Origin: Bacteroidales bacterium UBA3868
GTDB lineage: Bacteria; Bacteroidota; Bacteroidia; Bacteroidales; WCHB1-69
Length of the DNA: 18,803 bases
Assembly: GCA_002392325.1 (NCBI GenBank)
Contig: DGGS01000097.1
Span: 1 to 18,803 of the forward strand
Direction: 5' to 3'
Part shown: positions 1 to 18,803 of the stretch, in pieces
Numbering within the stretch: the stretch's first letter is position 1
Layout: each line of letters begins with the position of its first letter
Translations under genes and position numbers: made by a program
The notes under the pieces: generated by a model
Told to the model about the DNA's origin: nothing
Database searches by the model: none
The model's input: only the letters and a program-made list of their open reading frames with translations

Positions 1-2
1 TT

Positions 3-2975: not shown

Positions 2976-3027
2976 ACATTCTTGAAAAAAATAAATTACG
3001 AAAGATGCTTTGTTTCAATTTTTTTTG

Positions 3028-3035
3028 TACTTTTG
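3028..3035 (+). promoter_or_regulatory. Bacteroidota -7 promoter element for rpmB
   Basis: TACTTTTG matches TAnnTTTG exactly, 48 bases before the rpmB start codon. A TTTG at 3009-3012 could be the -33 box, but its 15-base spacer is shorter than the usual 19-21. Transcription probably begins near 3041-3045. Confidence 0.55.
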
Positions 3036-3083
3036 CCGCCCAAAATCAAAAGAGAATATTAATCATTAAAAACGATAGAGAAG

Positions 3084-3317
3084 ATGTCAAGAGTTTGCCA
3101 GATTACAGGAAAGAGAGCAGTGGTTGGTAACAATGTTTCCCACTCTAATATCAAAACCAAAAGAACCTTCAAACCGAACCTGCACACCAAGAAATTCTAT
3201 GTGCCGGAATTGGACGAATGGGTATATCTTAAAGTTTCCGCTCACGGTATGCGCATCATCAACAAGAAAGGCGTTTACGCCACTCTCGTCGAAGCTGCCC
3301 AAAAAGGTAACTTATAG
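3084..3317 (+). CDS. rpmB: 50S ribosomal protein L28
   Basis: This 77-aa protein is a full-length bacterial L28, a component of the large ribosomal subunit. The N-terminus [20 protein letters not shown] and the central [18 protein letters not shown] are characteristic of the family. Only one cysteine (C5) is present, so this is a form without the paired CxxC zinc-ribbon motifs. The start is ATG at 3084, behind an A-rich leader with no clear Shine-Dalgarno, as is usual in Bacteroidota. In many Bacteroidales, rpmB is followed by rpmG (L33) and a DUF4295 gene; here it is followed at once by a strong terminator, so it appears to be transcribed alone. Confidence 0.97.
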
Positions 3318-3338
3318 TGTTTTGATTACACGACCTAC

Positions 3339-3374
3339 AAGCTGTTGTGATGTTCCATCGCAACAGCTTTTTTT
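3339..3374 (+). terminator. Rho-independent terminator after rpmB
   Basis: A 14-bp stem (AAGCTGTTG-T-GATG pairing with CATC-G-CAACAGCTT, one U-G wobble) closes on a TTC loop and runs into a T tract at 3368-3374. It starts 21 bases after the rpmB stop codon. Confidence 0.92.
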
Positions 3375-3449
3375 ATTACGGATTCACACAATATTTTCCA
3401 CATTTCTTCGTATATATTCCTTGTGCCCCCAAAACCAGATTGATCATCA

Positions 3450-5945
3450 TTGAAAAATAAAAAACTGTTTTTCCTGATCCTCACCTTGCTGATGACGACC
3501 TTCGCCTATGGTCAGAAGGCCGTCGTGAAAGGCGTTGTGCTGGACGAGGAGAACCAGCCTATCGAGAATGTGGTCATTCAGGTGCTGGATTATAACACAC
3601 AAACCATCACCAGTGATTTCGGGCAATTTGCCATCAATGTTCCCGAAAATGTGGAATTCCGCCTGTACTTCCAGCAAATCAGCCACCGCGACACGGTATT
3701 GCGCTTCAAACTAAAGCCAAGAGAATCCAAAAACATCACCGTGATCCTGCCCACTATCGGCAACCGGCTGGAGCAGGTGAACATTCAGAGCAATAGCGAC
3801 AACGGCTATATCCGTGTAAACCCGAAACTTTCCTTCCAGATGCCATCCCCGGGCGGCGGCATGGAGTCCATCATCAAGATGATGCCCGGCACCTCATCCG
3901 TCAACGAACTCAGTTCCCAATACAATGTGCGAGGCGGCAACTACGATGAAAACCTGGTTTTTGTAAACGACATACAAATCTATCGTCCGTTTCTTATCCG
4001 CAACGCCCAACAGGAAGGTCTGAGTTTTGTAAACACCGATTTGGCAGGCAATGTCATTTTCTCCGCCGGCGGTTTTGAAGCCAAATACGGCGACAAGATG
4101 TCTTCCGTGCTGGATGTCCAGTACAAGGAACCCACCCAATATGGCGGCTCACTGTCGGTGAGTATGCTGGGCGCCTCCGTACATGCGGAAGGGCGTGTGG
4201 ACAGCTGCTTTTCGTTCCTGATCGGCTCCCGCTTCAAGTCCAACTCCTACCTGCTCCGCTCCATGCGCATGGCAGGCGACACCTCCGATTACAAACCACG
4301 CTATTTTGACACCCAAATGCTACTCAAGTGGGATATCTCCAAGAAATTCAGCATCAGTTTCTTAGGCAACATATCCCTCAACAGCTTCATTTACCAGCCC
4401 ACCAACAGGGAAACCAACTTCGGTCCCACGGATATGACCCGACAATTCAAAATCTATTTCGACGGACAGGAGGTGGACCGTTACCAGAATTACCTCGGAG
4501 GGCTTACTTTTCATTACCGCCTTAATGAGAACAACATCTTAAAACTCATTCTCTCCTCATACTACGCCAAAGAGAGTGAAACCTATGATATTCAGGGACA
4601 ATACTGGTTGCATGAGGTTGAACCGGATTTAGAGTCCAGTACTGTACATATTTTGTCAACGCTGGGTTACGGCACCAATTTGGAGCATGCGCGCAACCAT
4701 ATCACCTCCATTGTATCCGCCGCCGACCTGAGAGGCGAGCACAAACTGCCCGCATACAACCTGCTGTCTTGGGGTTTTAAAGCCCAAAACGAGATCATCC
4801 ATGACCAAATCAAGGAATGGACCATGAACGACTCCTCCGGACTCACACTGCCCTTCATCTTCAACACTCCCGGCGAGCCCGTACCGCTAGACGATCCTTC
4901 CCGAATCCTCACCTTTGGCGAAAACGCGTACTTAGTTTCCGTCAACAACTTGAATACCATGCGCTTAACGGGGTTCATACAGGACCAATGGAAGATTGAT
5001 GGCGACAGTTCCTCCCATTACATTCTGAACGCCGGATTGCGTTTCCACTACTGGACCTACAACAAACGGGAATTCACCGTATCCCCGAGGGTTTCTTTTG
5101 TTTACAACCCTCACTGGAAACATGACTGGATCTTTTCCATCCGCACCGGTCTTTACTATCAGCCGGCCTTTTATCGGGAAATGCGGTATGTGGATGGCAC
5201 TTTGAATCCAGACATCCGGTCACAACGATCCTTTCAAATCGTAGCCGGCGCCGAATACAATTTCAAAATGTGGCGACGGCCGTTTAAATTTACCGCAGAA
5301 GCGTATTATAAATATCTGGACCATCTCATCTCATATTCCATTGACAATGTGCGAATTACCTACAGTGGTTACAACGATGCCGTGGGTTACGCCACCGGAC
5401 TTGACTTGAAATTGAGTGGCGAGTTCATCCGCGGTCTGGAGTCCTGGTTCGCCGTATCCATCATGGATACCAAAGAGGATATCTTGGATGATTACTACTA
5501 TGACAAGGACGGTAACCGGATAGAACCCGGATATCTTCCCCGCCCCACCGACCAACGCATGGCATTCAACCTATTCTTCCAAGACCATATTCCCGGATTC
5601 CCGCAATTCCGGGTGCATCTCAACTTTGTCTTTGCCAGCGGACTTCCGGTAGGTCCCGTAAACGCCCCCGCATATCAACGGGTTCGTGACCCCAAATGGT
5701 ATCGCCGCGTGGACTTGGGATTCTCGTTCATGTTCCTTGAGCAAAGCCGCGACCGCATGCGCAACAAGTCCAAATTCATCCGCAGCATCAAAAACGCGGG
5801 TATCTATATTGAGGTGTTCAATTTGCTTGGCACCAAAAATGTGGCATCATACTCTTGGATATCCGATATTTACAACAACTCATACGCCGTTCCGAACTTC
5901 CTGACCGGAAGGATGATCAATGTGAAGTTTGCCGTGGAGTTTTAG
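3450..5945 (+). CDS. TonB-dependent outer-membrane receptor with N-terminal carboxypeptidase-regulatory-like domain
   Basis: This 831-aa outer-membrane beta-barrel would import a ligand using TonB-transduced energy. Residues 1-21 form a signal peptide (Lys-rich start, hydrophobic LFFLILTLLM core, AYG before the likely cleavage at Q22). Residues about 24-105 are a CarboxypepD_reg-like beta-sandwich (VVKGVVLDEENQPIENVVIQVL). The plug follows at about 115-240 (MPGTSSVNELSSQYNVRGGNYDENLVFVND...LAGNVIFSAGGFEAKYGDKMSS), then the barrel to the C-terminus, which ends in phenylalanine (NVKFAVEF). The start must be the TTG at 3450: an in-frame TGA lies at 3441-3443 and no ATG precedes the signal peptide. 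No SusD-like partner is adjacent and the ligand is unknown. The cobalamin riboswitch promoter lies beyond this gene's stop, so nothing here shows B12 control of it. It stands alone between the rpmB terminator and that promoter. Confidence 0.93.
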   Translation: MKNKKLFFLILTLLMTTFAYGQKAVVKGVVLDEENQPIENVVIQVLDYNTQTITSDFGQFAINVPENVEFRLYFQQISHRDTVLRFKLKPRESKNITVILPTIGNRLEQVNIQSNSDNGYIRVNPKLSFQMPSPGGGMESIIKMMPGTSSVNELSSQYNVRGGNYDENLVFVNDIQIYRPFLIRNAQQEGLSFVNTDLAGNVIFSAGGFEAKYGDKMSSVLDVQYKEPTQYGGSLSVSMLGASVHAEGRVDSCFSFLIGSRFKSNSYLLRSMRMAGDTSDYKPRYFDTQMLLKWDISKKFSISFLGNISLNSFIYQPTNRETNFGPTDMTRQFKIYFDGQEVDRYQNYLGGLTFHYRLNENNILKLILSSYYAKESETYDIQGQYWLHEVEPDLESSTVHILSTLGYGTNLEHARNHITSIVSAADLRGEHKLPAYNLLSWGFKAQNEIIHDQIKEWTMNDSSGLTLPFIFNTPGEPVPLDDPSRILTFGENAYLVSVNNLNTMRLTGFIQDQWKIDGDSSSHYILNAGLRFHYWTYNKREFTVSPRVSFVYNPHWKHDWIFSIRTGLYYQPAFYREMRYVDGTLNPDIRSQRSFQIVAGAEYNFKMWRRPFKFTAEAYYKYLDHLISYSIDNVRITYSGYNDAVGYATGLDLKLSGEFIRGLESWFAVSIMDTKEDILDDYYYDKDGNRIEPGYLPRPTDQRMAFNLFFQDHIPGFPQFRVHLNFVFASGLPVGPVNAPAYQRVRDPKWYRRVDLGFSFMFLEQSRDRMRNKSKFIRSIKNAGIYIEVFNLLGTKNVASYSWISDIYNNSYAVPNFLTGRMINVKFAVEF

Positions 5946-5967
5946 TTCCTCACCTTTCTTTTTTTAG

Positions 5968-5975
5968 TATCTTTG
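5968..5975 (+). promoter_or_regulatory. -7 promoter element upstream of the cobalamin riboswitch
   Basis: TATCTTTG matches TAnnTTTG and begins 23 bases after the receptor stop codon. It would start a transcript a few bases downstream, just before the riboswitch aptamer. No convincing -33 TTTG was found at the expected distance. Confidence 0.65.
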
Positions 5976-5999
5976 CCCCGTTTTTGGCGAAGCGGTCAT

Positions 6000-6140
6000 T
6001 TTTTTGCCGTTTCAGGGAAACAGGTGCGAATCCTGTACAGTACCCGCTGCTGTAAGTTTCATCCGTTTCCGGCACAAAAAAGTCACTGCCGCAAGGTGGG
6101 AAGGCGTGTCGGGAGAAACAAGTCAGAATACCGGCCTAAA
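6000..6140 (+). promoter_or_regulatory. Cobalamin (adenosylcobalamin/B12) riboswitch aptamer
   Basis: Conserved blocks occur in the right order: GGGAAACAGGTGCGAATCCTG at 6015-6035, then CAGTACCCGCTGCTGTAA, GTCACTGCCGCAAGGTGGGAAGGC around 6082-6105, and the B12 box AGTCAGAATACCGGCC at 6121-6136. Pairings that can be traced are GGG 6015-6017 with CCC 6043-6045, a CAGG/CCTG hairpin inside it, CCGGCAC with GTGTCGG (one wobble), GTTTC with GAAAC just outside, and GCCG 6006-6009 with CGGC in the B12 box as the closing stem. High intracellular cobalamin is expected to reduce expression of the gene that follows at 6217. Confidence 0.95.
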
Positions 6141-6141
6141 A

Positions 6142-6224
6142 CATGTTGTTAACCGCTTCGGGAGATAAGCGACATGCTGCCCGAGCACCATTATTAACCC
6201 ATTAAATGCCGAGGTAATGCATTT
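6142..6224 (+). promoter_or_regulatory. Riboswitch expression platform, probably translational
   Basis: Two hairpins lie between the B12 box and the coding sequence. The first (6142-6176) pairs CATGT with ACATG and CGCTT with AAGCG around the loop CGGGAGAT. Part of that loop (TCGGG, 6158-6162) can instead pair with CCCGA at 6180-6184, giving mutually exclusive folds. The second pairs AAATGC (6204-6209) with GCATTT (6219-6224); it places GAGG (6211-6214) in the loop and the G of the start codon in the stem. No U tract follows either hairpin, so control of translation initiation fits better than transcription termination. Confidence 0.5.
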
Positions 6225-7287
6225 CAAACAACCCTTTTTCCACGGAATCATTTTGTTTATGTTCGCCGTATTTTGCGGTGCCAGCTGCCAGCCCCCCACT
6301 CCACCCCCAACCCCTCCCGTTGACACTCAAGCAAGCGGCATCTACATTCTCAACGAAGGTCTTTTCCAACACAACAACAGCACCATATCATTTTACAACT
6401 TCGACACGGGCGATTTTCGCGCAGACTTGTTTCTTGAGATAAACCAGCGTGGCCTTGGCGACACAGGAAATGACCTTAAACGATATGGCAACAAACTCTA
6501 CTGTGTGGTCAACAACTCCCATCGGGTGGAAGTAATGGATTTCGCCACAGCAAAATCCATCAAAGCCATCAGTCTTCCCGGGAAAAGCCCTCGTCATATC
6601 ACCTTCCACCAAAACAAAGCGTATGTCTCCTGCTTTGACGGCGATGTGGTGCGTATTGACACAGCCACCTTGGAAGTGGAGCAATCCGTACACTCAGGCA
6701 ACAACCCCGAAGGTCTCTGCGTATGCAACGGCAAACTCTATGTGGCCAATTCCGGCGGACTGAACAATCCGGATTATGACAAGACCGTGTCCGTATTTGA
6801 TGTCAACACTTTGACTCTGCTGAAGACCATCGAGGTCGGGATCAACCCGTACATGGTGGCCGCCAGCGACAACGGACAATATGTGTATGTGTGCACGCGC
6901 GGCGATTACATTGACCAGTGCGGCACGCTCTCCCGCATTGATGCCCATACCGACCAAGTTAGCCAGACATGGCAAAACATCCAAAACTTCTGTTTAGACG
7001 GGAACAAAGCATATGTGTATGAGGTGGACTACAATGCCGCTTCCAACCCTGTCAAAGTGCTCGACCTTACCAATCCGGATATGGAGCCAACCCTTTTCAT
7101 TACCGATGGCACCAATTTGCAAATGCCCTACGGCATCACCGTAAACCCATTGAATGGGGATGTCTATATTACGGATGCTCACAATTTTACAGTCACGGGA
7201 GATGTATTCTGTTTCGACAAAAACGGCAAAAAGAAATTCTCTTTCTCTGCGGGATTGAACCCGAGTGCCATTGTGTTTAAGCAATAG
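6217..7287 (+). CDS. btuG: BtuG-like cobalamin-capturing surface lipoprotein (YncE/DUF5074-type beta-propeller)
   Basis: This 356-aa protein has a lipoprotein signal (hydrophobic ILFMFAVFC followed by lipobox GAS-C, lipidated Cys24) and a proline-rich linker (PPTPPPTPP). Repeated beta-propeller blades follow: GKSPRHITFHQNKAYVS, GNNPEGLCVCNGKLYVANSG, VGINPYMVAASDNGQYVYVC and MPYGITVNPLNGDVYITDA. BtuG proteins of Bacteroides are seven-bladed propeller lipoproteins on the cell surface that bind cobalamin very tightly and cap the BtuB transporter. The fold, the lipobox, the length and above all the cobalamin riboswitch directly upstream support that role here; cobalamin binding itself is inferred. 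The ATG at 6217 gives the full signal peptide. BtuG is normally encoded with btuB; here the next 150 bases hold no such gene and a terminator follows, so the gene is a single-gene B12 regulon, perhaps truncated by the neighbouring island. A different propeller lipoprotein under B12 control is the alternative. Confidence 0.85.
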   Translation: MHFKQPFFHGIILFMFAVFCGASCQPPTPPPTPPVDTQASGIYILNEGLFQHNNSTISFYNFDTGDFRADLFLEINQRGLGDTGNDLKRYGNKLYCVVNNSHRVEVMDFATAKSIKAISLPGKSPRHITFHQNKAYVSCFDGDVVRIDTATLEVEQSVHSGNNPEGLCVCNGKLYVANSGGLNNPDYDKTVSVFDVNTLTLLKTIEVGINPYMVAASDNGQYVYVCTRGDYIDQCGTLSRIDAHTDQVSQTWQNIQNFCLDGNKAYVYEVDYNAASNPVKVLDLTNPDMEPTLFITDGTNLQMPYGITVNPLNGDVYITDAHNFTVTGDVFCFDKNGKKKFSFSAGLNPSAIVFKQ

Positions 7288-7435
7288 GATGTATCGACAA
7301 ACAGCGAGAACATCATCAATCTCGTTCTGGTTATACGGAGTGTTGAACACCACCGTAAACCTGCCATGAGCGAGCTCTAGCGCAAGCCATAAAATATCTT
7401 CTCTGTTTTTGTTTACATATAGTGTCAATTTCGCG
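7288..7435. other. Non-coding gap after btuG with possible gene remnant
   Basis: No complete gene is seen between the btuG stop and the terminator. The minus strand reads as protein-like text without a stop (for example NTPYNQNEIDDVLAVCRYI) and runs on antisense into btuG, so it has no end of its own. The plus strand has only short frames. It may be a scrap of a lost gene. Confidence 0.3.
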
Positions 7436-7465
7436 CCGCCAAATGCCATTTTCAGGCGGTTTTTT
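7436..7465 (+). terminator. Probable intrinsic terminator downstream of btuG
   Basis: CCGCC at 7436-7440 pairs with GGCGG at 7455-7459; inside, AAAT can pair with ATTT. A run of six T follows (7460-7465). It would end the riboswitch/btuG transcript just before the island promoter. Confidence 0.65.
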
Positions 7466-7467
7466 GC

Positions 7468-7475
7468 TATTTTTG
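7468..7475 (+). promoter_or_regulatory. -7 promoter element of the helicase operon
   Basis: TATTTTTG matches TAnnTTTG. It sits three bases after the preceding T tract and 85 bases before the helicase start codon, and its last base is the first base of a perfect inverted repeat. A similar GCTATTTTTA recurs at 7504-7513. No -33 TTTG was found. Confidence 0.55.
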
Positions 7476-7505
7476 CAGAACCACAAAAAATAATTGTGGT
7501 TCTGC
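7475..7505. repeat. Perfect 10-bp inverted repeat over the predicted start site (operator or RNA hairpin)
   Basis: GCAGAACCAC at 7475-7484 is repeated inverted as GTGGTTCTGC at 7496-7505 across an A+T-only 11-base spacer. The first arm begins at the end of the -7 element, so the expected transcription start falls inside the repeat. No U tract follows directly, which argues against a terminator. It could be an operator for a dimeric repressor or a 5' stabilising hairpin. Confidence 0.6.
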
Positions 7506-7515
7506 TATTTTTATA

Positions 7516-7554
7516 ATGAATTATCGCCATATGACAAAAAGGAGGTTGTTCTAA
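7516..7554 (+). other. Possible 12-codon leader ORF carrying an AGGAGG
   Basis: ATG at 7516 opens MNYRHMTKRRLF, stopped by TAA at 7552-7554, six bases before the helicase ATG and in the same frame. The codons AGG AGG (7540-7545) form a textbook Shine-Dalgarno sequence, unusual in Bacteroidota, 15 bases from the helicase ATG. A shorter start (ATG 7531) exists in the same frame. There is no coding evidence beyond position and frame. Confidence 0.25.
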
Positions 7555-7560
7555 TATTTT

Positions 7561-10500
7561 ATGAAAGATATTTTGCGTAATTTTCTTGAGAAAAACAAAC
7601 AAGATTCTGGTTTAATGTTGTTACCGTTAACAACTGGGTCAGGGAAAACTCATCATGTTCTTGAATATATTGCTGATTTACTTACGCGAAACAGAGAACA
7701 AAAGGTGTTCTTTATAACAACGCAAAAGAAGAATCTCCCTGTCGAAAAACTACGCAGCTTATACAAGGGTAGTGATTTTGATGAAAGGGTTTTGCGAATC
7801 CAGTCAGTAATGGATTGTGTAAAAGAAAACTTGACTGATGAATTGGTTAAAGAAATTAAAGACAAACACCCAATTCTTGCAAGTTCCCCGAAATTCAGAA
7901 TGTTAGTTGCTGTTCGCAGAGAAATACTTCGTATTGGCGATGAAAACATAGAAACGGGACGGGTGGCAGAACGTGATTTTCGTGATGAGCTGTTAAGTTT
8001 TCTAAAAAAGGACTGTAAAAAAGAAGATCTTCTAAATAAAATAAAAACAGACATGTCATGGCGATGGGTCGGTAAATTATATCCAATGGTTTACACAGCG
8101 GAACGACAAGTTTATTTTATGAGTATGGACAAATTTATGCTCCCGTATAACACTCTTGTTGATCCGATAGAGAAACTTGTTGATAGTAAGTGGTTCCATG
8201 GCGCGTATGTCTTTATTGATGAATTTGATGCAACAAAAGGAACCGTTCTCAATAGAATTATTGATGACAAATACAATAAAATCAATCTAATAGCATTGGC
8301 AAAAAAAATCACACAAGGTTTAAACTATACCGATTTCCCAGCTATTTATACAGATACCGAGAAAATAATTAAAAATAACTTAACTAATTTCAATCAATTA
8401 AGCAAGGATTATTGTTTTAAATACGCATTCAAAACATCAGATGAGATTAAATCAACAGATAGTTTTTTGTTTCACGATAACGGATATTGGGGACAAACCA
8501 CAGAGAAGAGCTTAATAGTGAGAACCGACACCCAGCGAAAACAGAACATTATTAATTATAAATCTGGAGATAACGACAATAAAACATATACGCTATATGA
8601 GCTTTTGTCTAAAATACAGAGCAAACTAACGTATTTTCAGAATGGCGTTTCATATATCGCCAAAGACTACACCAACAAAAAAGATGTAAATCTTAAAACT
8701 GCGGTTGATTCTTTTTTAAACTTATTTCTTGATAATCCTTTTAGCGATTACATTTCCGCACAGGTGATGTCGATTTTACGGGCAGAGAATGATAAGAAAA
8801 GCGATATATCTATAATGGACAAATTTGATACATCATTCTATAAAAAAGGGTTTCGCTATACCAGATTGGAGAATGATGACTTTAGTAATGCGGAACAATC
8901 AGAGGTGACTTTATACTCCTATAATGATACGCCTGAATCTGTAATGGAGAAAATGGCTAAAGTCGCAAAGATTGTGGGAATTTCGGCGACGGCTACACTT
9001 AAAACCGTATTAGGGAACTACGATATTGATTATTTGCGACGTAAGTTGCTTGACAAATACTATGTCTTGAGAGAAGATGAACAAAAACACTTGAAAAATT
9101 TCCTCAATGAATCAAAGAAGAATTATCACAAAACTAATATCAATGTTGAATTTACTGATATTTCAGAAAAAGAATATACCGATGAAGTATGGTTGAACAT
9201 TGTTTCGGAAACAGATGCACAAGAAATAACAGAAGCATTAAATAATAGTTATGGCACTAACAATTATATAAAATTCAGATTTTATAAAATATCGTGGGCA
9301 TTCAAACAATTCTATTCGCACGATGATATTAAATCATTCTTGTGCTTTATGAATTTGCACCCAAAAAAAGGGAATGATTTGGGTTGTGAGATGTTGTCTT
9401 TTATTTTTGATAAAATAACAGGGGAAAATGGTGGAGCAAAAAATTTGATAGAATATTTAAACAACGAAGGAGAAGGTTATGATAGTAATTTGAATCGAGT
9501 AAGAGATCGTTTAAGCAAAGGAGATAGATTGTTTGTAATATCTGTTTACAAAACTCTTGGTACTGGCCAAAACCCACAATACAAAATTCCAAATGGCATC
9601 GAAGTAGTAAAAATCAACGACAAATATGATAAAGACGAAAAGGATTTTGACGCAATCTATTTGGACAAACCTACTCATATAATCAGCAATTTATATGATA
9701 CTTCACAACTAAAATGGGATGAGAATGATTTCTTAAAGTTTGTTTTTGAGATGGAGTATTTGTGTCAAAACGGAGATATAAGCGTGTCACAAAAAAGAGA
9801 ACTGATAAATGCTGGTTCTAGAAAGTTGTGTGGTATACCTTGCAAAAGAAAAAGAGATATAGACGTTGAACGTATGCAGCCATACAAAGGCTTAGCGACA
9901 CAGGTGATAAATCAAGGTTGCGGGCGTATTTGTCGTACTAACAAGAAGAACAAGAACATATACATTTTTGCAGATAGAGATATTTCAAGTGTAATTGACC
10001 CTTCGGCAAGAACGGCAATCCCATTGAGCCCTGAATTTGAAAAATTGCTCGACGAGTTAGAAAAGATTGGTATTCAAGAATCTGCACCAACATTATATGA
10101 GGAAAAGGCTAAAAAAATTGCAACAGATACATCCCGAACTATTGGCAGTTATTTATCCTGGGAAGATAGGTGGACAGCTAACAAAATAGATGAGTGGAAG
10201 CAAATGCGGTCGTACGCATTATTATTCCCTACTCCCAACGAACAAGAGTTCAAAACTTTTCCACTTTGTGATATGTATGTTGAATTGCCGGAAAAACAGT
10301 CGGCATATTGGTATGACCAATCGGAAGATTATGGGAAATTTGACGCAATCAGTTTTACGAAGAAATTATCTCAGGAAGTATCCGAAGAAGATTGCCAGTT
10401 GAAAACATTGATGAAAATTCCAGGCATAAAAGAATTATTTGAAAGGAAAGGCTATAATACATTCTGGACCCCTACCAAATATATGATGTCACCTTCTTTG

Positions 10501-10908
10501 TATAGTCGAATATATAAGGGCGCATTGGGCGAGGTTGTTGGGAAACAAATATTTAAAGACACAATAGATGTTGAGCTGGAAGACATAGAAGATAGTTCTG
10601 TTTATGAATTCTTAGATTACAAGGTGCCGGGTAAACCTATATATGTGGATTTCAAGTTGTGGAAAGAATTTGATTTGGGTAAGGATAAATCTGATAAACA
10701 ACGTTCGGAGATTTTCGCTAAAGCGAAAAAATGTAAAGCCAAAAAAGTTTTCATTGTCAATATTTGCTCAACAACCGAACGCTCATGTAAACCACCAATT
10801 GAAGAAGAAGGCTGCACTTTATTCGAAATACCACAATTATACTATGAGAATGGAGACCAAGTTAAACTCTCTATTAGTTCAATAGAAACAATATCCAAAC
10901 ACTTATGA
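7561..10908 (+). CDS. SF2 helicase (DinG/XPD-like motifs) fused to a C-terminal PD-(D/E)xK-like nuclease domain
   Basis: This 1115-aa protein carries the SF2 ATPase motifs in order: Walker A TTGSGKT (residues 24-30), motif Ia around FFITTQ, motif II DEFD (220-223), SAT motif (475-477), and motif VI QGCGRICR (785-792) with Q785, G788, R789 and R792. The long insertion between Walker A and DEFD and the shape of motif VI recall DinG/XPD-type helicases; I see no four-cysteine Fe-S cluster. At about 980-1060 a restriction-endonuclease-like core is readable: GALGE (E991), then FLD (D1019), then YVDFK (D1030, K1032), followed by a beta-strand VFIVNI. It therefore probably unwinds and cuts nucleic acid. 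The ATG at 7561 is preceded by an in-frame stop at 7552. The gene overlaps the next by ATGA. It is clearly richer in A and T than rpmB, uvrC or rpoC, which suggests acquisition. An antiphage or anti-plasmid role is inferred; I cannot place it in a named system. Confidence 0.85.
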   Translation: MKDILRNFLEKNKQDSGLMLLPLTTGSGKTHHVLEYIADLLTRNREQKVFFITTQKKNLPVEKLRSLYKGSDFDERVLRIQSVMDCVKENLTDELVKEIKDKHPILASSPKFRMLVAVRREILRIGDENIETGRVAERDFRDELLSFLKKDCKKEDLLNKIKTDMSWRWVGKLYPMVYTAERQVYFMSMDKFMLPYNTLVDPIEKLVDSKWFHGAYVFIDEFDATKGTVLNRIIDDKYNKINLIALAKKITQGLNYTDFPAIYTDTEKIIKNNLTNFNQLSKDYCFKYAFKTSDEIKSTDSFLFHDNGYWGQTTEKSLIVRTDTQRKQNIINYKSGDNDNKTYTLYELLSKIQSKLTYFQNGVSYIAKDYTNKKDVNLKTAVDSFLNLFLDNPFSDYISAQVMSILRAENDKKSDISIMDKFDTSFYKKGFRYTRLENDDFSNAEQSEVTLYSYNDTPESVMEKMAKVAKIVGISATATLKTVLGNYDIDYLRRKLLDKYYVLREDEQKHLKNFLNESKKNYHKTNINVEFTDISEKEYTDEVWLNIVSETDAQEITEALNNSYGTNNYIKFRFYKISWAFKQFYSHDDIKSFLCFMNLHPKKGNDLGCEMLSFIFDKITGENGGAKNLIEYLNNEGEGYDSNLNRVRDRLSKGDRLFVISVYKTLGTGQNPQYKIPNGIEVVKINDKYDKDEKDFDAIYLDKPTHIISNLYDTSQLKWDENDFLKFVFEMEYLCQNGDISVSQKRELINAGSRKLCGIPCKRKRDIDVERMQPYKGLATQVINQGCGRICRTNKKNKNIYIFADRDISSVIDPSARTAIPLSPEFEKLLDELEKIGIQESAPTLYEEKAKKIATDTSRTIGSYLSWEDRWTANKIDEWKQMRSYALLFPTPNEQEFKTFPLCDMYVELPEKQSAYWYDQSEDYGKFDAISFTKKLSQEVSEEDCQLKTLMKIPGIKELFERKGYNTFWTPTKYMMSPSLYSRIYKGALGEVVGKQIFKDTIDVELEDIEDSSVYEFLDYKVPGKPIYVDFKLWKEFDLGKDKSDKQRSEIFAKAKKCKAKKVFIVNICSTTERSCKPPIEEEGCTLFEIPQLYYENGDQVKLSISSIETISKHL

Positions 10909-12722
10909 AAATAAATACCAATCGAATTGTTTATGAATTGGATGCCATACAAATGGCATCGTTATATGATGTTTATTCGTTGAAAACGACAAATGATCGA
11001 TTCCATTCAGGAGCGAAGTTGATTGACGAATTATCTGATAATAAACGCATTATATCAGTGGTGTTTGTTTCAAGAAAAGAATATTTGATAATGCTGAAGA
11101 AAGGCATAGAAAGCAGGTTTGATTTGCTTGATAACATTCGCAAACAGAAAGACGGCGACAAGATTACATTAACTGATTATTTGTCTGGAAAAACCAATGA
11201 TTATTACTTGCTTCAACTTCTTTTGAATGCCCTCGGTACGCGCCAAACAAAGTTTGAATCGTACAATAATGTTACTGGGCATTTGTATTGCTTCAGTCCC
11301 AATTGGATAAAAAGGTTTCATTCTGAAATCATCAGTATTCCCACTATGGACATCCGTTTGACATCGGGCATTTTGACTTGGAATATCTGCACATTCAACT
11401 CGCTGAAATACAAGAATGTGATGGATTTTGGGAAACGGAACATTTCGGAGTTTCCGCAATACACAATCTCTGCCAATTATACATTGCGCCGAAAATTAAA
11501 AGATGATGGTAAAACGGATGCCTATATTCAACGAAGGATTTTCGACGAGAAAACAAGCAAAACATTTCTCGATATTTCTGATGAGAAAGCATTTGATGAA
11601 AGCAAGATGGGAATCATTACAAAAGTGGTTTCACAGTTCAACGAGAAATACAAAGGGCTGGCAAATTTGAATTTTGAGCAACAGGAATCGGCGTCAACTA
11701 TTGAGTATTCAAGCAACCGGGAAAAAAGACTATTGAACGAACGACTTACAAGGATGCTATCAAAACAAAAGGTCATTCTAGTCGATCTAATAGGAGATGA
11801 GAAATCGGCAATCCAATGCGAAAAAATAGTTTCTGTTTTCAAATCATACTTTGGAATATCGGTAAAACAAGCCAAAAGACTGTCGAAAGATGCATATAAT
11901 TTAAGATTGATACACAAGGACTCATATTATGGTGATAATTTTGCAGATCCACATGACGAAACTAACCTATCGAAATATACTGTTCAACACATAACAACAG
12001 AGAATTTCAATGATAAAGGATCAGATGTTTATCTTCGGGCTATCGCATTCAATGTCGTAGAAGAATTAATCATTAAAGATGATTTAAGGAATGGAGCTAT
12101 CTCAATTGTTAATTGGTCTGAATACAAATTCAAAGACAATTTGATTTTTGGCCTTGAACACGATATTCCATCTAAAACCGGTGGAACAATCAGTCAATTC
12201 TTTTTTATGGCCATAAAACCTGATGGACGGTTTGAGATACGACAACTGGAGAACGATTTGTTCTCCTCTGATGAATACCATAAATATTTAAAAATCTTTA
12301 CTTCTTGCGAGGAAGAGACAGTAAAAGGCATCGTTAAATGTGGCGAGAACATTAATGTTATCCATGAGACAGGATTACATACGGTTCCAAATATTTTTGG
12401 ATTGAAAGATGAGTTGGCAAAGGGTAATAACAAACTCAAAAATAAAGAAGCTCGAGATAATTATTTGTCTGCATTACTTGATGTGAAAACATTTGAAAAG
12501 GATAAGGAGTTGTATTATTATGTGGGAGAAATGGGAGTCGGCATAAATAGCACATTATCAGGTGTACCTATCCGTAGAATAGAAAAATTTGAGGATTCTT
12601 CTTTATTCTTCGACAAACTTTTACCACTTATGGGAGTGACATTTGTCCGCAACGGACAGTTGACGGTTGTACCATTTCCGTTTAAGTATTTGAGAGAATA
12701 CATAACGACTATGAAACCCTAA
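10905..12722 (+). CDS. Unknown 605-aa partner of the helicase-nuclease; possibly Argonaute/PIWI-like
   Basis: I do not recognise this family. The ATG at 10905 overlaps the helicase stop (ATGA), implying translational coupling and a shared task. There is no signal peptide or membrane segment, so it is likely cytoplasmic. Residues 1-230 alternate strands and helices and include GHLYCFSPNWIKR and DIRLTSGILTWNICTFNSL. From residue 290 there is a Rossmann-like stretch (VILVDLIGDEKSAIQCEKI, then a helix and strands through LRLIHKD at 333-339), then VQHITTENF, and a beta-rich region with ISQFFFMAIKPDGRFEIRQL. It ends FVRNGQLTVVPFPFKYLREY. This order (N-terminal lobe, MID-like Rossmann fold, RNase H-like C-terminal half) resembles prokaryotic Argonautes, and the PIWI-RE family in particular is encoded next to DinG-like helicases and REase-fold nucleases. 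No DEDX catalytic tetrad is evident. The PIWI idea is a hypothesis only; the protein may be a new family. Confidence 0.8.
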   Translation: MKINTNRIVYELDAIQMASLYDVYSLKTTNDRFHSGAKLIDELSDNKRIISVVFVSRKEYLIMLKKGIESRFDLLDNIRKQKDGDKITLTDYLSGKTNDYYLLQLLLNALGTRQTKFESYNNVTGHLYCFSPNWIKRFHSEIISIPTMDIRLTSGILTWNICTFNSLKYKNVMDFGKRNISEFPQYTISANYTLRRKLKDDGKTDAYIQRRIFDEKTSKTFLDISDEKAFDESKMGIITKVVSQFNEKYKGLANLNFEQQESASTIEYSSNREKRLLNERLTRMLSKQKVILVDLIGDEKSAIQCEKIVSVFKSYFGISVKQAKRLSKDAYNLRLIHKDSYYGDNFADPHDETNLSKYTVQHITTENFNDKGSDVYLRAIAFNVVEELIIKDDLRNGAISIVNWSEYKFKDNLIFGLEHDIPSKTGGTISQFFFMAIKPDGRFEIRQLENDLFSSDEYHKYLKIFTSCEEETVKGIVKCGENINVIHETGLHTVPNIFGLKDELAKGNNKLKNKEARDNYLSALLDVKTFEKDKELYYYVGEMGVGINSTLSGVPIRRIEKFEDSSLFFDKLLPLMGVTFVRNGQLTVVPFPFKYLREYITTMKP

Positions 12723-12817
12723 AATCCATGCTGACACAAAAACACGGTTAACCAAAGGTTCGTCCGCCGGCAGGAACGATCTGTAAACACTTGCCCGATT
12801 TAGTCTCCGAGCTGAAG
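12723..12817. other. Short convergent gap without a clear terminator
   Basis: The plus-strand operon and the minus-strand XRE gene converge here. The palindrome GGTTAACC and a small AACC-AAA-GGTT hairpin are present, but no stem with a T tract. Confidence 0.4.
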
Positions 12818-13087
12818 CTACTCTGCCAATTTAATAAGCGGTTCGCCCAAAGCAGTGGAAATCTCGGATAATGTTCTAAATGTGAAGTTAGGAAGGCCTG
12901 TGATCCAACGAGAGACCACCGCTTCGTTTTTTCCCAACTTTTTCGCCAAGTCACGCTGCGTCATGTTCTTTTCATTAAGAATCTTGTCAATGCGTGCAAT
13001 GATACCTGCAGACATCTGCACCTCCGACATGATTTCCGGCGAAACTTGCTCTACTCTGGATTTGAACCATTCTTGCTTGTCGTTCAT
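12818..13087 (-). CDS. XRE-family helix-turn-helix protein (antitoxin-like)
   Basis: This 89-aa protein contains a Cro/C1-type HTH at residues 42-83 (MTQRDLAKKLGKNEAVVSRW, then LSEISTALGEPL). The N-terminal 40 residues are charged and probably helical. The size, and translation directly coupled to a small upstream gene (ATGA overlap at 13084-13087), are typical of antitoxin-type regulators such as the HigA group. The upstream partner is broken by a frameshift, so this may be an orphan regulator. It could bind its own promoter or the inverted repeat at 7475-7505, but no matching site was found near 13330-13400, so that is speculation. DNA binding is a confident call; the antitoxin role is moderate. 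Confidence 0.85.
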   Translation of the reverse strand: MNDKQEWFKSRVEQVSPEIMSEVQMSAGIIARIDKILNEKNMTQRDLAKKLGKNEAVVSRWITGLPNFTFRTLSEISTALGEPLIKLAE

Positions 13088-13322
13088 ATTTCAAAAATAA
13101 TGTTGTCTGTACCAACAAGTTCTTTTTCGTTAACGCTGATATAGCCCTTTTCAATGTTTTCCTTCAAAATTCTCTCAAACCTTTGCAAATCTAACACATA
13201 ACCATACAGTTTCGGATCTTCCTGATAACTCTTAGTGCTTTTTACTCCTCCATTCCCTAGAATAACGATTTGCTCGAAGTTCTTTGTGATTCAGAAATTT
13301 TGTCCAATGTCATCTTCTTCAT
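13084..13322 (-). pseudogene. Small partner gene of the XRE regulator, broken by a one-base frameshift
   Basis: Reading the minus strand from ATG at 13322-13320 gives MKKMTLDKISE, then the frame goes to a stop. One frame over, starting just after that point (near 13289-13293), the strand reads ITKNFEQIVILGNGGVKSTK and on through DPKLYGYVLDLQRFERILKE to VGTDNIIFEI, ending at TGA 13086-13084, which overlaps the XRE start. Restoring a single base (GAAATC in place of GAATC) joins both parts into a seamless 79-aa protein: the interval is 239 bases, one short of 80 codons. The family is not recognised; the position fits the partner of an antitoxin-like regulator. The break may be real inactivation, programmed frameshifting, or a sequencing error. 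It is listed as a pseudogene on the sequence given. Confidence 0.7.
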
Positions 13323-13328
13323 ACGCTG

Positions 13329-13336
13329 CAAAAATA
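13329..13336 (-). promoter_or_regulatory. -7 promoter element for the XRE unit
   Basis: On the minus strand TATTTTTG (TAnnTTTG) ends six bases before the ATG of the broken gene, so the transcript would be leaderless or nearly so. A TTGACA on the minus strand with its TTG at 13361-13359 lies 22 bases further upstream, close to a -33 position. Confidence 0.45.
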
Positions 13337-13666
13337 TTAAAATAATTGATATATATGTCAAGTTTGTTTATTTTTTTCTTATCTGCGCAGACATGCCTCA
13401 CTAACCTCTCACACAGACAATCTGCTCGGGGTTAATGAAATGGTGCGCTTTCAGCACGCACTTCGCTCTCTTTTTGTCATGGTCTGTTTCTACTTTGCAA
13501 TATTACAACACAAAAAACTCATTATCAAGTATTTTGCAAAATTTCATATCAGAGTGGTTTTCAAATAAATATATAATAAAAATTTACAATTAATTATACA
13601 AATTGTTAATTTTCAATGTGTGTATTCGGAATAATCAAAAGAAATGTTGCCTTCAACTAAAATCAC
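13337..13666. other. A+T-rich intergenic region, no gene supported
   Basis: Between the XRE-unit promoter and the uvrC promoter lies about 330 bases with no supported gene. A more G+C-balanced core at about 13385-13495 is open on the minus strand for 34 codons (ending KAHHFINPEQIVCVRG) without a start codon; it could be a gene scrap or chance. The right part (13560-13620) is almost pure A+T, with a small ACAATT/AATTGT inverted repeat. Confidence 0.4.
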
Positions 13667-13674
13667 TATCTTTG
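13667..13674 (+). promoter_or_regulatory. -7 promoter element for uvrC
   Basis: TATCTTTG matches TAnnTTTG, 31 bases before the uvrC ATG. A TTG at 13647-13649 with a 17-base spacer is a weak -33 candidate. An A+T-rich stretch lies upstream. Confidence 0.6.
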
Positions 13675-13705
13675 CCCACAATTTCTCATCATCTCATCCG
13701 CCCAC

Positions 13706-15496
13706 ATGAAAGAGGTACGCGAAAATCTGAAACTCATACTCAAAACCCTGCCTGAAAAGCCGGGCGTATATCGCTTTTTGGACGACAAAGGCACCATCAT
13801 ATATGTTGGCAAGGCCAAGCGTTTGAAACGGCGCGTATCCTCCTATTTCAACAAAGAGCATGATTCCGCCAAAGTCCGTATGCTCGTCACCAAAATCCGC
13901 GACATACAAACCACTGTGGTGGACACCGAATGGGAAGCGTTGCTGCTGGAGAACAGCATGATCAAGCAGTTCAAACCACATTACAACATCATGCTGAAAG
14001 ACGACAAATCGTATCCTTGGATAGCCGTCACCAAAGAGGAGTTTCCCCGGATTTTCCCCACCCGGCGTCCCGAACCCGACAAGATGCAACTATTCGGCCC
14101 CTATTCGTCTGTAAAACAGATGAATGTGCTGCTGGACACCATCAACGAGATGTTCCCTCTGCGCAAATGCAAACGGTTGGTGAAAAACGACCGGCCCTGC
14201 ATGCAGTATCAGGTGCACAACTGTTCGGCACCCTGCTGTGGATACATCACGGCCGAGCAATACCAGGCCAACATCCAAAAAAGCGTGGATATCATCAAGG
14301 GCAACCGGAAGGAAGTCATCAGCCGCTTGAAAGAGGAAATGATGAAATGTGCGGAGAACTGGGAGTTTGAAGAAGCGGGCAGAATCAAACAGCAAATCGA
14401 AATTCTGGAGAATTTTGTGGTGAAATCGGTGGTGGTCAGTCCGCAACTTACCAATCTGGATGTATTCGGAATGGAAGAGGACGACGACTGTGGTTACATC
14501 AGCTTCTTGCGCATTGTGGACGGTTCCATCGTGCAAGCGCACACGCTGGAAATCAACAACAAGATGGATCGCAGTCGCGAGGACCTGCTTTGGGCAGGAT
14601 TGCTGGAGATGGAGATGCGGTTGGGCGAGTTGTTCCCCAACATTCTGCTTCCCCTCATGCCGACCATTGAGACGGAGAAATGGACATTCCAGGTTCCCCA
14701 GCGGGGCGAGAAGCGCAAACTGGTGGAATTGGCGGAGCGCAACGCCCATTTCTACATGCTGGAGAAGAAGAAACGGCAAGACTTGGTCGATCCTGAGCGC
14801 CGGAGCCAGCGCGTGCTCATGGCCCTGCAGCAAGCCCTCGGCATGAAAACACTACCCCGCCGTATCGAGTGCTTCGACAACTCCAACACCCAAGGCGAAG
14901 ACCCTGTTGCCGCCATGAGCTGCTTTATTGACGGCAAACCCGCCAAAAGCGAATATCGCCACTTCAATATCAAAACCGTGGTCGGTGCCGACGATTTCGC
15001 CTCCATGGAAGAGGTGATTTACCGCCGCTATCATCGCCTGCTGGAAGAGAACAAGCCCTTGCCCGACCTTGTGGTCATTGACGGCGGGAAAGGCCAACTG
15101 AACGCCGCCTGGAAATCCATACAAGCGCTGAACATTGAAGACCGGCTGATGATGGTGGGCATTGCCAAACGGTTGGAAGACATTTACAAAGTGGGCGATG
15201 AATACCCCATCTATATCGACAAAAAATCAGAAGCACAGAAACTGCTTCAGCATGTGCGCGACGAAGTGCACCGCTTTGGCATCACGCATCACCGCAAACG
15301 CCGCTCCAAGACCAGCATAGCTTCCGCCTTGGACAAAGCGCCCGGCATAGGACCCGTGCTCAAACAACGGCTGCTGAGCAAATTCAAGAGCGTGAGCCGC
15401 ATCAAAACCGCTACTATGGCAGAACTGGCAGAAGTGTTAGGTCCCAAGAAAGCCGAAACCCTTTTGGCATATTTTCACACGCTTAACGACAAATAA
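13706..15496 (+). CDS. uvrC: UvrABC excinuclease subunit C
   Basis: UvrC makes the 3' and 5' incisions around a DNA lesion after UvrA and UvrB have located it (nucleotide excision repair). At 596 aa it is full length. The GIY-YIG nuclease domain (about residues 14-95) shows PGVYRF and IIYVGKAKRLKRRV, with LENSMIKQFKPHYN at its end. A Cys-containing linker (CKRLVKNDRPCMQYQVHNCSAPC) follows at about 155-180. The UVR/UvrB-binding coiled region is at about 203-240, and the RNase H-like C-terminal nuclease carries D391 (ECFDNSN), D459 (VVIDGGKGQL) and H522 (DEVHRFGITHH). A helix-hairpin-helix DNA-binding region closes the protein (APGIGPVLKQRLLSKF and the following turn). ATG at 13706 gives the expected N-terminus. 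It has its own promoter and converges with the rpoC-DUF3467 unit. Confidence 0.98.
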   Translation: MKEVRENLKLILKTLPEKPGVYRFLDDKGTIIYVGKAKRLKRRVSSYFNKEHDSAKVRMLVTKIRDIQTTVVDTEWEALLLENSMIKQFKPHYNIMLKDDKSYPWIAVTKEEFPRIFPTRRPEPDKMQLFGPYSSVKQMNVLLDTINEMFPLRKCKRLVKNDRPCMQYQVHNCSAPCCGYITAEQYQANIQKSVDIIKGNRKEVISRLKEEMMKCAENWEFEEAGRIKQQIEILENFVVKSVVVSPQLTNLDVFGMEEDDDCGYISFLRIVDGSIVQAHTLEINNKMDRSREDLLWAGLLEMEMRLGELFPNILLPLMPTIETEKWTFQVPQRGEKRKLVELAERNAHFYMLEKKKRQDLVDPERRSQRVLMALQQALGMKTLPRRIECFDNSNTQGEDPVAAMSCFIDGKPAKSEYRHFNIKTVVGADDFASMEEVIYRRYHRLLEENKPLPDLVVIDGGKGQLNAAWKSIQALNIEDRLMMVGIAKRLEDIYKVGDEYPIYIDKKSEAQKLLQHVRDEVHRFGITHHRKRRSKTSIASALDKAPGIGPVLKQRLLSKFKSVSRIKTATMAELAEVLGPKKAETLLAYFHTLNDK

Positions 15497-15525
15497 CACT
15501 TTGTTTATTTCATTCTTTTATATTG

Positions 15526-15552
15526 AAAAAGGGTGAAACCGAAGTTCCACCC
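15526..15552 (-). terminator. Rho-independent terminator of the rpoC-DUF3467 operon
   Basis: Read on the minus strand: GGGTGGAAC, loop TTCG, GTTTCACCC, then TTTTT. All nine pairs form (one G-U) and close on a C(UUCG)G tetraloop, an exceptionally stable arrangement. On the plus strand the stem has a mismatch and no T tract follows, so it acts mainly on the minus strand. Confidence 0.85.
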
Positions 15553-15597
15553 TATCCATCATTAATATAAAAAACTTGAACGTATTCGGAAGATTAT

Positions 15598-15894
15598 TTA
15601 TGCCAGGCCCCCATTATTCATCATTGGAGGAATAGCGCCTTGCGGATTGTCCACTATAACACCATTCTGTCCCTCATACTTGGAGATGTTGTCCGCAAGC
15701 GCGTTCAACAACCGTTTGGCGTTCTGGGGTGTCATAATGATACGGGAACGAACTGTACCTTTTTGAACACCGGGCAGCATAGCCACGAAATCCACTATGA
15801 ATTCCGAATTGGAATGAGAGATGATAGCCAAGTTGGAATATACGCCTTGTGCTATCTCTTCTGGCAAATTAATGTCGATTTTCTGATCTGGCAT
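15598..15894 (-). CDS. DUF3467 family protein
   Basis: This 98-aa protein matches DUF3467 along its length: an N-terminal QGVYSNLAIISHSNSEFIVDF, a middle TVRSRIIMTPQNAKRLLNAL and a helix ADNISKYEGQNG, followed by a Pro/Met/Asn-rich tail. The family is small, cytoplasmic and of unknown function, and in Bacteroidota it commonly follows rpoC, as here. The gap to rpoC is 15 bases and AAGGA lies four bases before the ATG, so it is very probably cotranscribed with rpoC and ends at the terminator at 15526-15552. Its steady association with RNA polymerase genes hints at a link to transcription or ribosome supply, but nothing in the sequence shows this. Confidence 0.93.
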   Translation of the reverse strand: MPDQKIDINLPEEIAQGVYSNLAIISHSNSEFIVDFVAMLPGVQKGTVRSRIIMTPQNAKRLLNALADNISKYEGQNGVIVDNPQGAIPPMMNNGGLA

Positions 15895-15909
15895 GATTCC
15901 TTTTATTTT

Positions 15910-18803
<2,894 letters not shown>

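Follow-up and report, generated by a model that had tools for sequence, protein, structure and literature searches.

DdmDE systems (DNA defence modules) limit plasmids, the main carriers of gene transfer, and those characterised are described in PMC12409362 as plasmid-targeting and DNA-guided; structures are solved for the systems of Lactobacillus casei and Vibrio cholerae. We analysed an 18,803-nucleotide stretch of Bacteroidales bacterium UBA3868 (contig DGGS01000097.1, positions 1 to 18,803; hereafter the window) and deduce, with a probability of roughly 0.9, that a two-gene operon in it is a DdmDE system with a compact type of DdmE. This assignment draws on homology and motifs, the predicted fold, the arrangement as an operon and the co-occurrence of the two genes, together with a low ratio of nonsynonymous to synonymous substitution rates (dN/dS) and the place of insertion, a chromosomal slot where a sister species carries a different defence system. 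An earlier note on this DNA had proposed an undescribed system with an unknown partner protein, which has to be given up as both proteins are homologous to known DdmD and DdmE. Homology and fold give good support to its proposal that the pair acts on foreign nucleic acid as a defence, with a helicase-nuclease effector and an Argonaute-type partner. The two genes are long open reading frames (ORFs) on one strand and overlap by ATGA at 10905-10908, so that the operon stands as the note had described it:

7561..10908, + strand: ddmD, superfamily 2 (SF2) helicase with a C-terminal PD-(D/E)xK nuclease, 1115 amino acids (aa); ORF with PADLOC and PDB matches
10905..12722, + strand: ddmE, compact DdmE-type prokaryotic Argonaute-like protein, 605 aa

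In PADLOC the 1115-aa protein matches DdmD best (E 1.8e-45), and six distinct solved sequences match it at E 2.7e-46 to 3.9e-42. One of these carries the name DdmD (9ix4_A; E 2.7e-46, with the best match over 146-1084). The remaining five are labelled helicase/UvrB N-terminal proteins, and three of these belong to entries titled DdmDE or DdmD-DdmE. Pfam gave matches below its curated cut-offs only (ResIII, 22.3 bits against 22.5; Helicase_C_2, E 0.067), and NCBIfam listed nothing for the two window proteins at E <= 1. The helicase and nuclease motifs, including the residues D1030 and K1032 that the note had named for control mutants, keep their key residues in 40 or more of the 41 rows of an alignment (the window protein and 40 relatives longer than 1000 aa, one lacking the N-terminus), which agrees with an SF2 helicase fused to a PD-(D/E)xK-like nuclease. 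The residues identical in at least 40/41 rows are given below in brackets; we take SATA to be helicase motif III and QGCGRICR to be motif VI.

7630..7650, + strand: Walker A, TTGSGKT, residues 24-30 (G26, G28, K29)
8218..8229, + strand: Walker B, DEFD, residues 220-223 (all four)
8983..8994, + strand: SATA, residues 475-478 (all four)
9913..9936, + strand: QGCGRICR, residues 785-792 (Q785, G788, R789, R792)
10615..10656, + strand: nuclease core, D1019 to D1030-F-K1032 (D1019, D1030, F1031, K1032)

The window DdmE aligns by profile along nearly the entire L. casei protein (LcDdmE). The L. casei system is the best sequence match of both window proteins and also the best fold match of DdmE, while V. 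cholerae DdmE (VcDdmE) is more distant (profile E 2.4e-33). Among 50 aligned DdmEs, 48 of them different, D348, T364, D393 and K594 are some of the residues identical in every row, in compact and long forms alike, and the C-terminus carries a conserved signature:

12672..12701, + strand: PFPFKYLREY, DdmE residues 590-599 (P590-Y595 and E598 identical in 50/50 rows)

The residue after F-G-[ILV], which we take to be the site of the first catalytic Asp in active Argonautes, is E418 in the window and varies among the 50 rows (E 15, C 8, K 7, S 4, Q 4, R 4, A 2, V 2, others 4). This variation suggests an inactive PIWI domain in DdmE, the equivalence of the site being judged from the sequence motif and not from coordinates.

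Several observations weigh against the DdmDE assignment. The single-sequence match of the window DdmE to a solved DdmE is confined to residues 568-600 (E 4.5e-07), the PADLOC DdmE model does not report the protein at E <= 1, and its predicted structure has low-confidence stretches (340-352, 370-372 and 581-587). Moreover, it lacks a helical PIWI block that both solved DdmEs carry, at the following site:

12429..12434, + strand: junction following DdmE residue 509, the place of a helical block of ~75 residues in the solved proteins (from alignments and the model of a long relative)

The block is a trait shared by the solved DdmEs and no published criterion; hence its absence marks a variant and does not exclude the protein from DdmDE. 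It is also missing from 37 of the other 49 DdmEs: 70-87 residues follow window position 509 in 12 of the 50 rows, and none or one in the remaining 38. For the long class, the model of a Coprococcus catus protein (L041; predicted local distance difference test (pLDDT) 86.9, predicted template modelling score (pTM) 0.84) folds residues ~507-582 into four helices (block pLDDT 89-96). In a DdmE tree without an outside root, from which the block columns were excluded as below the fill limit, the window row is one of 35 that form a compact clade (support 100/96), and three more compact rows (L039, L043, L047) form a separate clade (support 100/97). Two changes of the trait are required on the tree; a single change is compatible with 16% of the bootstrap trees. 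The long form is probably the older one, because the block is present in both LcDdmE and VcDdmE.

Compared with the related locus L003, dN/dS is 0.08 for DdmE and 0.115 for DdmD, and compared with L004 it is 0.077 for DdmE; these are the three of four comparisons that could be computed (DdmD against L004 could not), at dS of 0.85-2.0, near saturation. Purifying selection seems to act on both genes, and the low values (0.077-0.115, dS near saturation) argue that the compact form is not a product of decay. Compact DdmEs occur in Bacteroidales, Clostridia and Fibrobacter, mostly in rumen and gut samples according to the record titles, and our literature search, which covered listings and passages outside five primary DdmDE papers, found no mention of them. 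Tentatively, and with the odds rather against it, the compact DdmDE may be a separate subtype that lost the four-helix PIWI block (Bacteroidales, Clostridia, Fibrobacter), so that duplex handling or the hand-over to DdmD would differ from both solved systems; gut anaerobes would then have an anti-plasmid system that is widespread and under-annotated and can sit in the same chromosomal slot as CRISPR-Cas9. In any case the class offers a natural deletion for asking what the PIWI helical block does.

The earlier note had left it to be checked whether homologues of the two genes co-occur, and they do: DdmD lies directly upstream of DdmE, with frames overlapping or abutting, in 50 of 59 related loci, a count that includes near-copies (e.g. 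L003/L005, L008/L009, L012/L015/L016, L025/L026), genes cut by contig ends and fragments (e.g. L036, L049). As the loci were found via DdmE patterns, this count measures how commonly a DdmE is accompanied by DdmD and not the converse. In four other loci DdmE starts at a contig edge, and a further four (L048, L051, L055, L061) hold only C-terminal or short DdmE stretches and no DdmD. A DdmE stretch was recovered by profile in 58/59 loci, with none in L057. Hosts include Bacteroidota, Bacillota, Fibrobacterota, Spirochaetota and Pseudomonadota, and within the host family DdmE was found in one of 104 genomes searched, the window's own. The nearest titled loci, 76-82% identical, come from two Paludibacteraceae metagenome-assembled genomes (MAGs) and one other Bacteroidia MAG; the protein database gave one relative (P0002) at 89% identity, with the 7998 best candidates scored and the best 120 of 201 matches considered. 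One Paludibacteraceae MAG contig (JAILLP010000036.1) carries two different DdmDE operons, L003 and L026, whose DdmEs are 82% and 35% identical to that of the window. Among the relatives, the DdmEs of L040, L052, L054 and L060 are interrupted or split. For instance, the DdmE gene of L054 (7089-11737) is broken by two opposite-strand genes, presumably an IS21-type IstA/IstB pair judging by their resemblance.

The PADLOC DdmE model reports only 6 of 19 DdmEs, all weakly (window 0/1, relatives 1/8 and 5/10, with E limits of 1, 0.01 and 0.001). Of the 13 compact forms, counting that of the window, the model reports 6, and of the 6 long ones none, so that the misses are due to sequence distance and not to the missing block. 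The DdmD model does detect the window partner. Because so few DdmEs are reported, DdmDE systems are probably undercounted where annotation requires both genes.

The operon lies within an inserted block that stands out against congeneric genomes:

~7288..13658, no strand: inserted block between the DUF5074 gene and uvrC (ends approximate)

We found uvrC in 38 of 40 genomes of the genus and compared stretches from 36 of the 37 others, leaving out G026 with its partial matches. The DUF5074 gene, so named for a Pfam domain, lies at most 201 bp before uvrC in 8 of the 36, which represent the empty slot. In 27 it is not upstream of uvrC in the stretch compared, some of which are short (it is downstream in L078 and L080), and these therefore do not show the slot. 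The remaining stretch, L075 of genome G015, has 7.9 kb between the two genes. This insert (3290-11172) is a type II CRISPR-Cas system with Cas9 (E 1.5e-152), Cas1 (E 3.3e-95), Cas2 (E 3.2e-21) and a repeat array; between Cas9 and Cas1 lies one more gene, of 276 aa. Sister species thus carry different defence systems in this one slot, a single second example that supports a defence role without relying on the homology of the pair. The composition agrees with the A+T-rich block noted before, with a GC fraction of 0.32-0.36 across ~7500-12500 against 0.44-0.54 in most flanking DNA (0.38-0.40 around 12001-14000). Other features in and around the insertion are:

7285-7560, - strand: protein-like frame of 65 residues, missing from the empty site, no family match
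7475..7505, + strand: terminator-like hairpin between the DUF5074 gene and ddmD, 12 pairs and a T tail (minimum free energy -24.3 kcal/mol, fold z -4.39)
12818..13087, - strand: intact PDC-M64C-like helix-turn-helix (HTH) gene inside the insertion (PADLOC E 1.3e-21; Pfam HTH_3)
13087..13290, - strand: broken PDC-M64B-like gene before the HTH gene, C-terminal fragment only (E 6e-15)

The toxin-antitoxin-like neighbour of the earlier note is thus retained as far as the HTH gene goes, but its partner is only a fragment; the HTH gene is probably not part of the DdmDE system. A promoter of the operon's own, also claimed there, is not shown by a scan for sigma-70-type sites, which gave 3 against 1.2 expected in shuffled sequences. 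No tRNA was found in the window. A cobalamin riboswitch lies upstream of the DUF5074 gene (5968-6153, + strand; Rfam RF00174, 83.3 bits).

Around the related loci, with six near-copy and three weak ones dropped beforehand, the PADLOC families matching at E <= 1e-20 numbered 141 for the 145 ORFs lying within 2.5 kb and 31 for the 115 ORFs lying beyond 5 kb. The counts refer to family rows, which are redundant, and not to ORFs, the near set is longer (~48,000 vs 34,640 residues), 8 of the 153 near ORFs chosen (~820-900 aa) were left out, and ORFs above 900 aa are in neither set. Hence the enrichment of defence families is a crude count and only suggestive.

By homology, the window DdmE is Argonaute-like and probably unable to cleave; it would load short DNA guides and pair with plasmid DNA. 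Guide-loaded DdmE would then recruit DdmD, which would open from an autoinhibited dimer and load on the displaced strand; its SF2 motor would translocate 5' to 3' while the PD-(D/E)xK domain nicks or degrades the DNA, and plasmids would be lost. These are the steps of the characterised systems as reviewed in PMC12409362, and PMC12904381 agrees in outline, one passage swapping the names DdmD and DdmE. For the window system we infer guide type, plasmid target, recruitment and step order from them. DdmD relatives occur in 4 of 72,556 plasmid records, two with at least 80% query coverage, and DdmE relatives in two plasmid records, neither over 80%. None of 50,697 phage records contains a DdmD relative, and a scan of viral contigs resting on one peptide pattern found no relative. 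A 291-kb Nostoc plasmid (NZ_CP117770.1, 48108-53653) carries a DdmDE-like pair whose DdmD is 29.6% identical over the whole query.

A DdmDE-derived pair could also act mainly against phage or conjugative and integrative DNA instead of plasmids, its compact DdmE being tuned to RNA guides or other replication intermediates. The missing PIWI block and the surplus of PADLOC families near related loci, crude as that count is, would fit such a shift. However, characterised DdmDE is described as plasmid-targeting and DNA-guided in PMC12409362, and the identity of D348, T364, D393 and K594 in 50/50 compact and long forms argues for one guide chemistry, so that we regard this alternative as unlikely. 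It is more improbable still, at about the level of a stray chance, that the operon is decayed or silent and merely carried along by an integrating element. The broken PDC-M64B-like gene next to it, the occurrence in a single genome of the host family and the interrupted relatives point that way, but both reading frames of the window operon run uninterrupted from end to end and retain the motifs, and dN/dS is low.

Least probable of all is a pair of the ApsAB branch, with an ApsA helicase-nuclease and a MID-containing ApsB. ApsA and DdmD do form one wide family according to PMC11096173, yet ApsB is reported there as lacking sequence similarity to DdmE, and the window protein aligns along nearly all of LcDdmE. 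Moreover, the top PADLOC match of its partner is DdmD. ApsAB is set apart here by its published description, not by ApsA and ApsB sequences.

Among the other named systems, Hachiman (HamAB) has two genes with helicase and nuclease functions; its nuclease is separate, whereas in the window it is fused to the helicase. Gabija consists of a TOPRIM ATPase and a UvrD helicase, and PIWI-RE combines pPIWI_RE domains with a DinG-type helicase. Searches of Pfam and PADLOC gave no HamA/DUF1837, TOPRIM or UvrD match at E <= 1, in line with the earlier exclusion of Hachiman and Gabija, and no PIWI-RE match at that limit, the Helicase_C_2 hit on DdmD being below its cut-off. ApsAB of E. coli ST38 likewise pairs a helicase-nuclease with an Argonaute-like partner and is anti-plasmid; its ApsB has a MID motif (PMC11096173). 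The V. cholerae system (PDB 8u3k, 9ezy, 9bgk, 8u0j) has a DdmE that carries the helical block, unlike the window DdmE. The closest counterpart is the L. casei system (PDB 9iw3, 9ixm, 9ix4), which likewise joins a helicase-nuclease DdmD to an Argonaute-like DdmE, of 715 residues with the helical PIWI block in L. casei and of 605 residues without it in the window.
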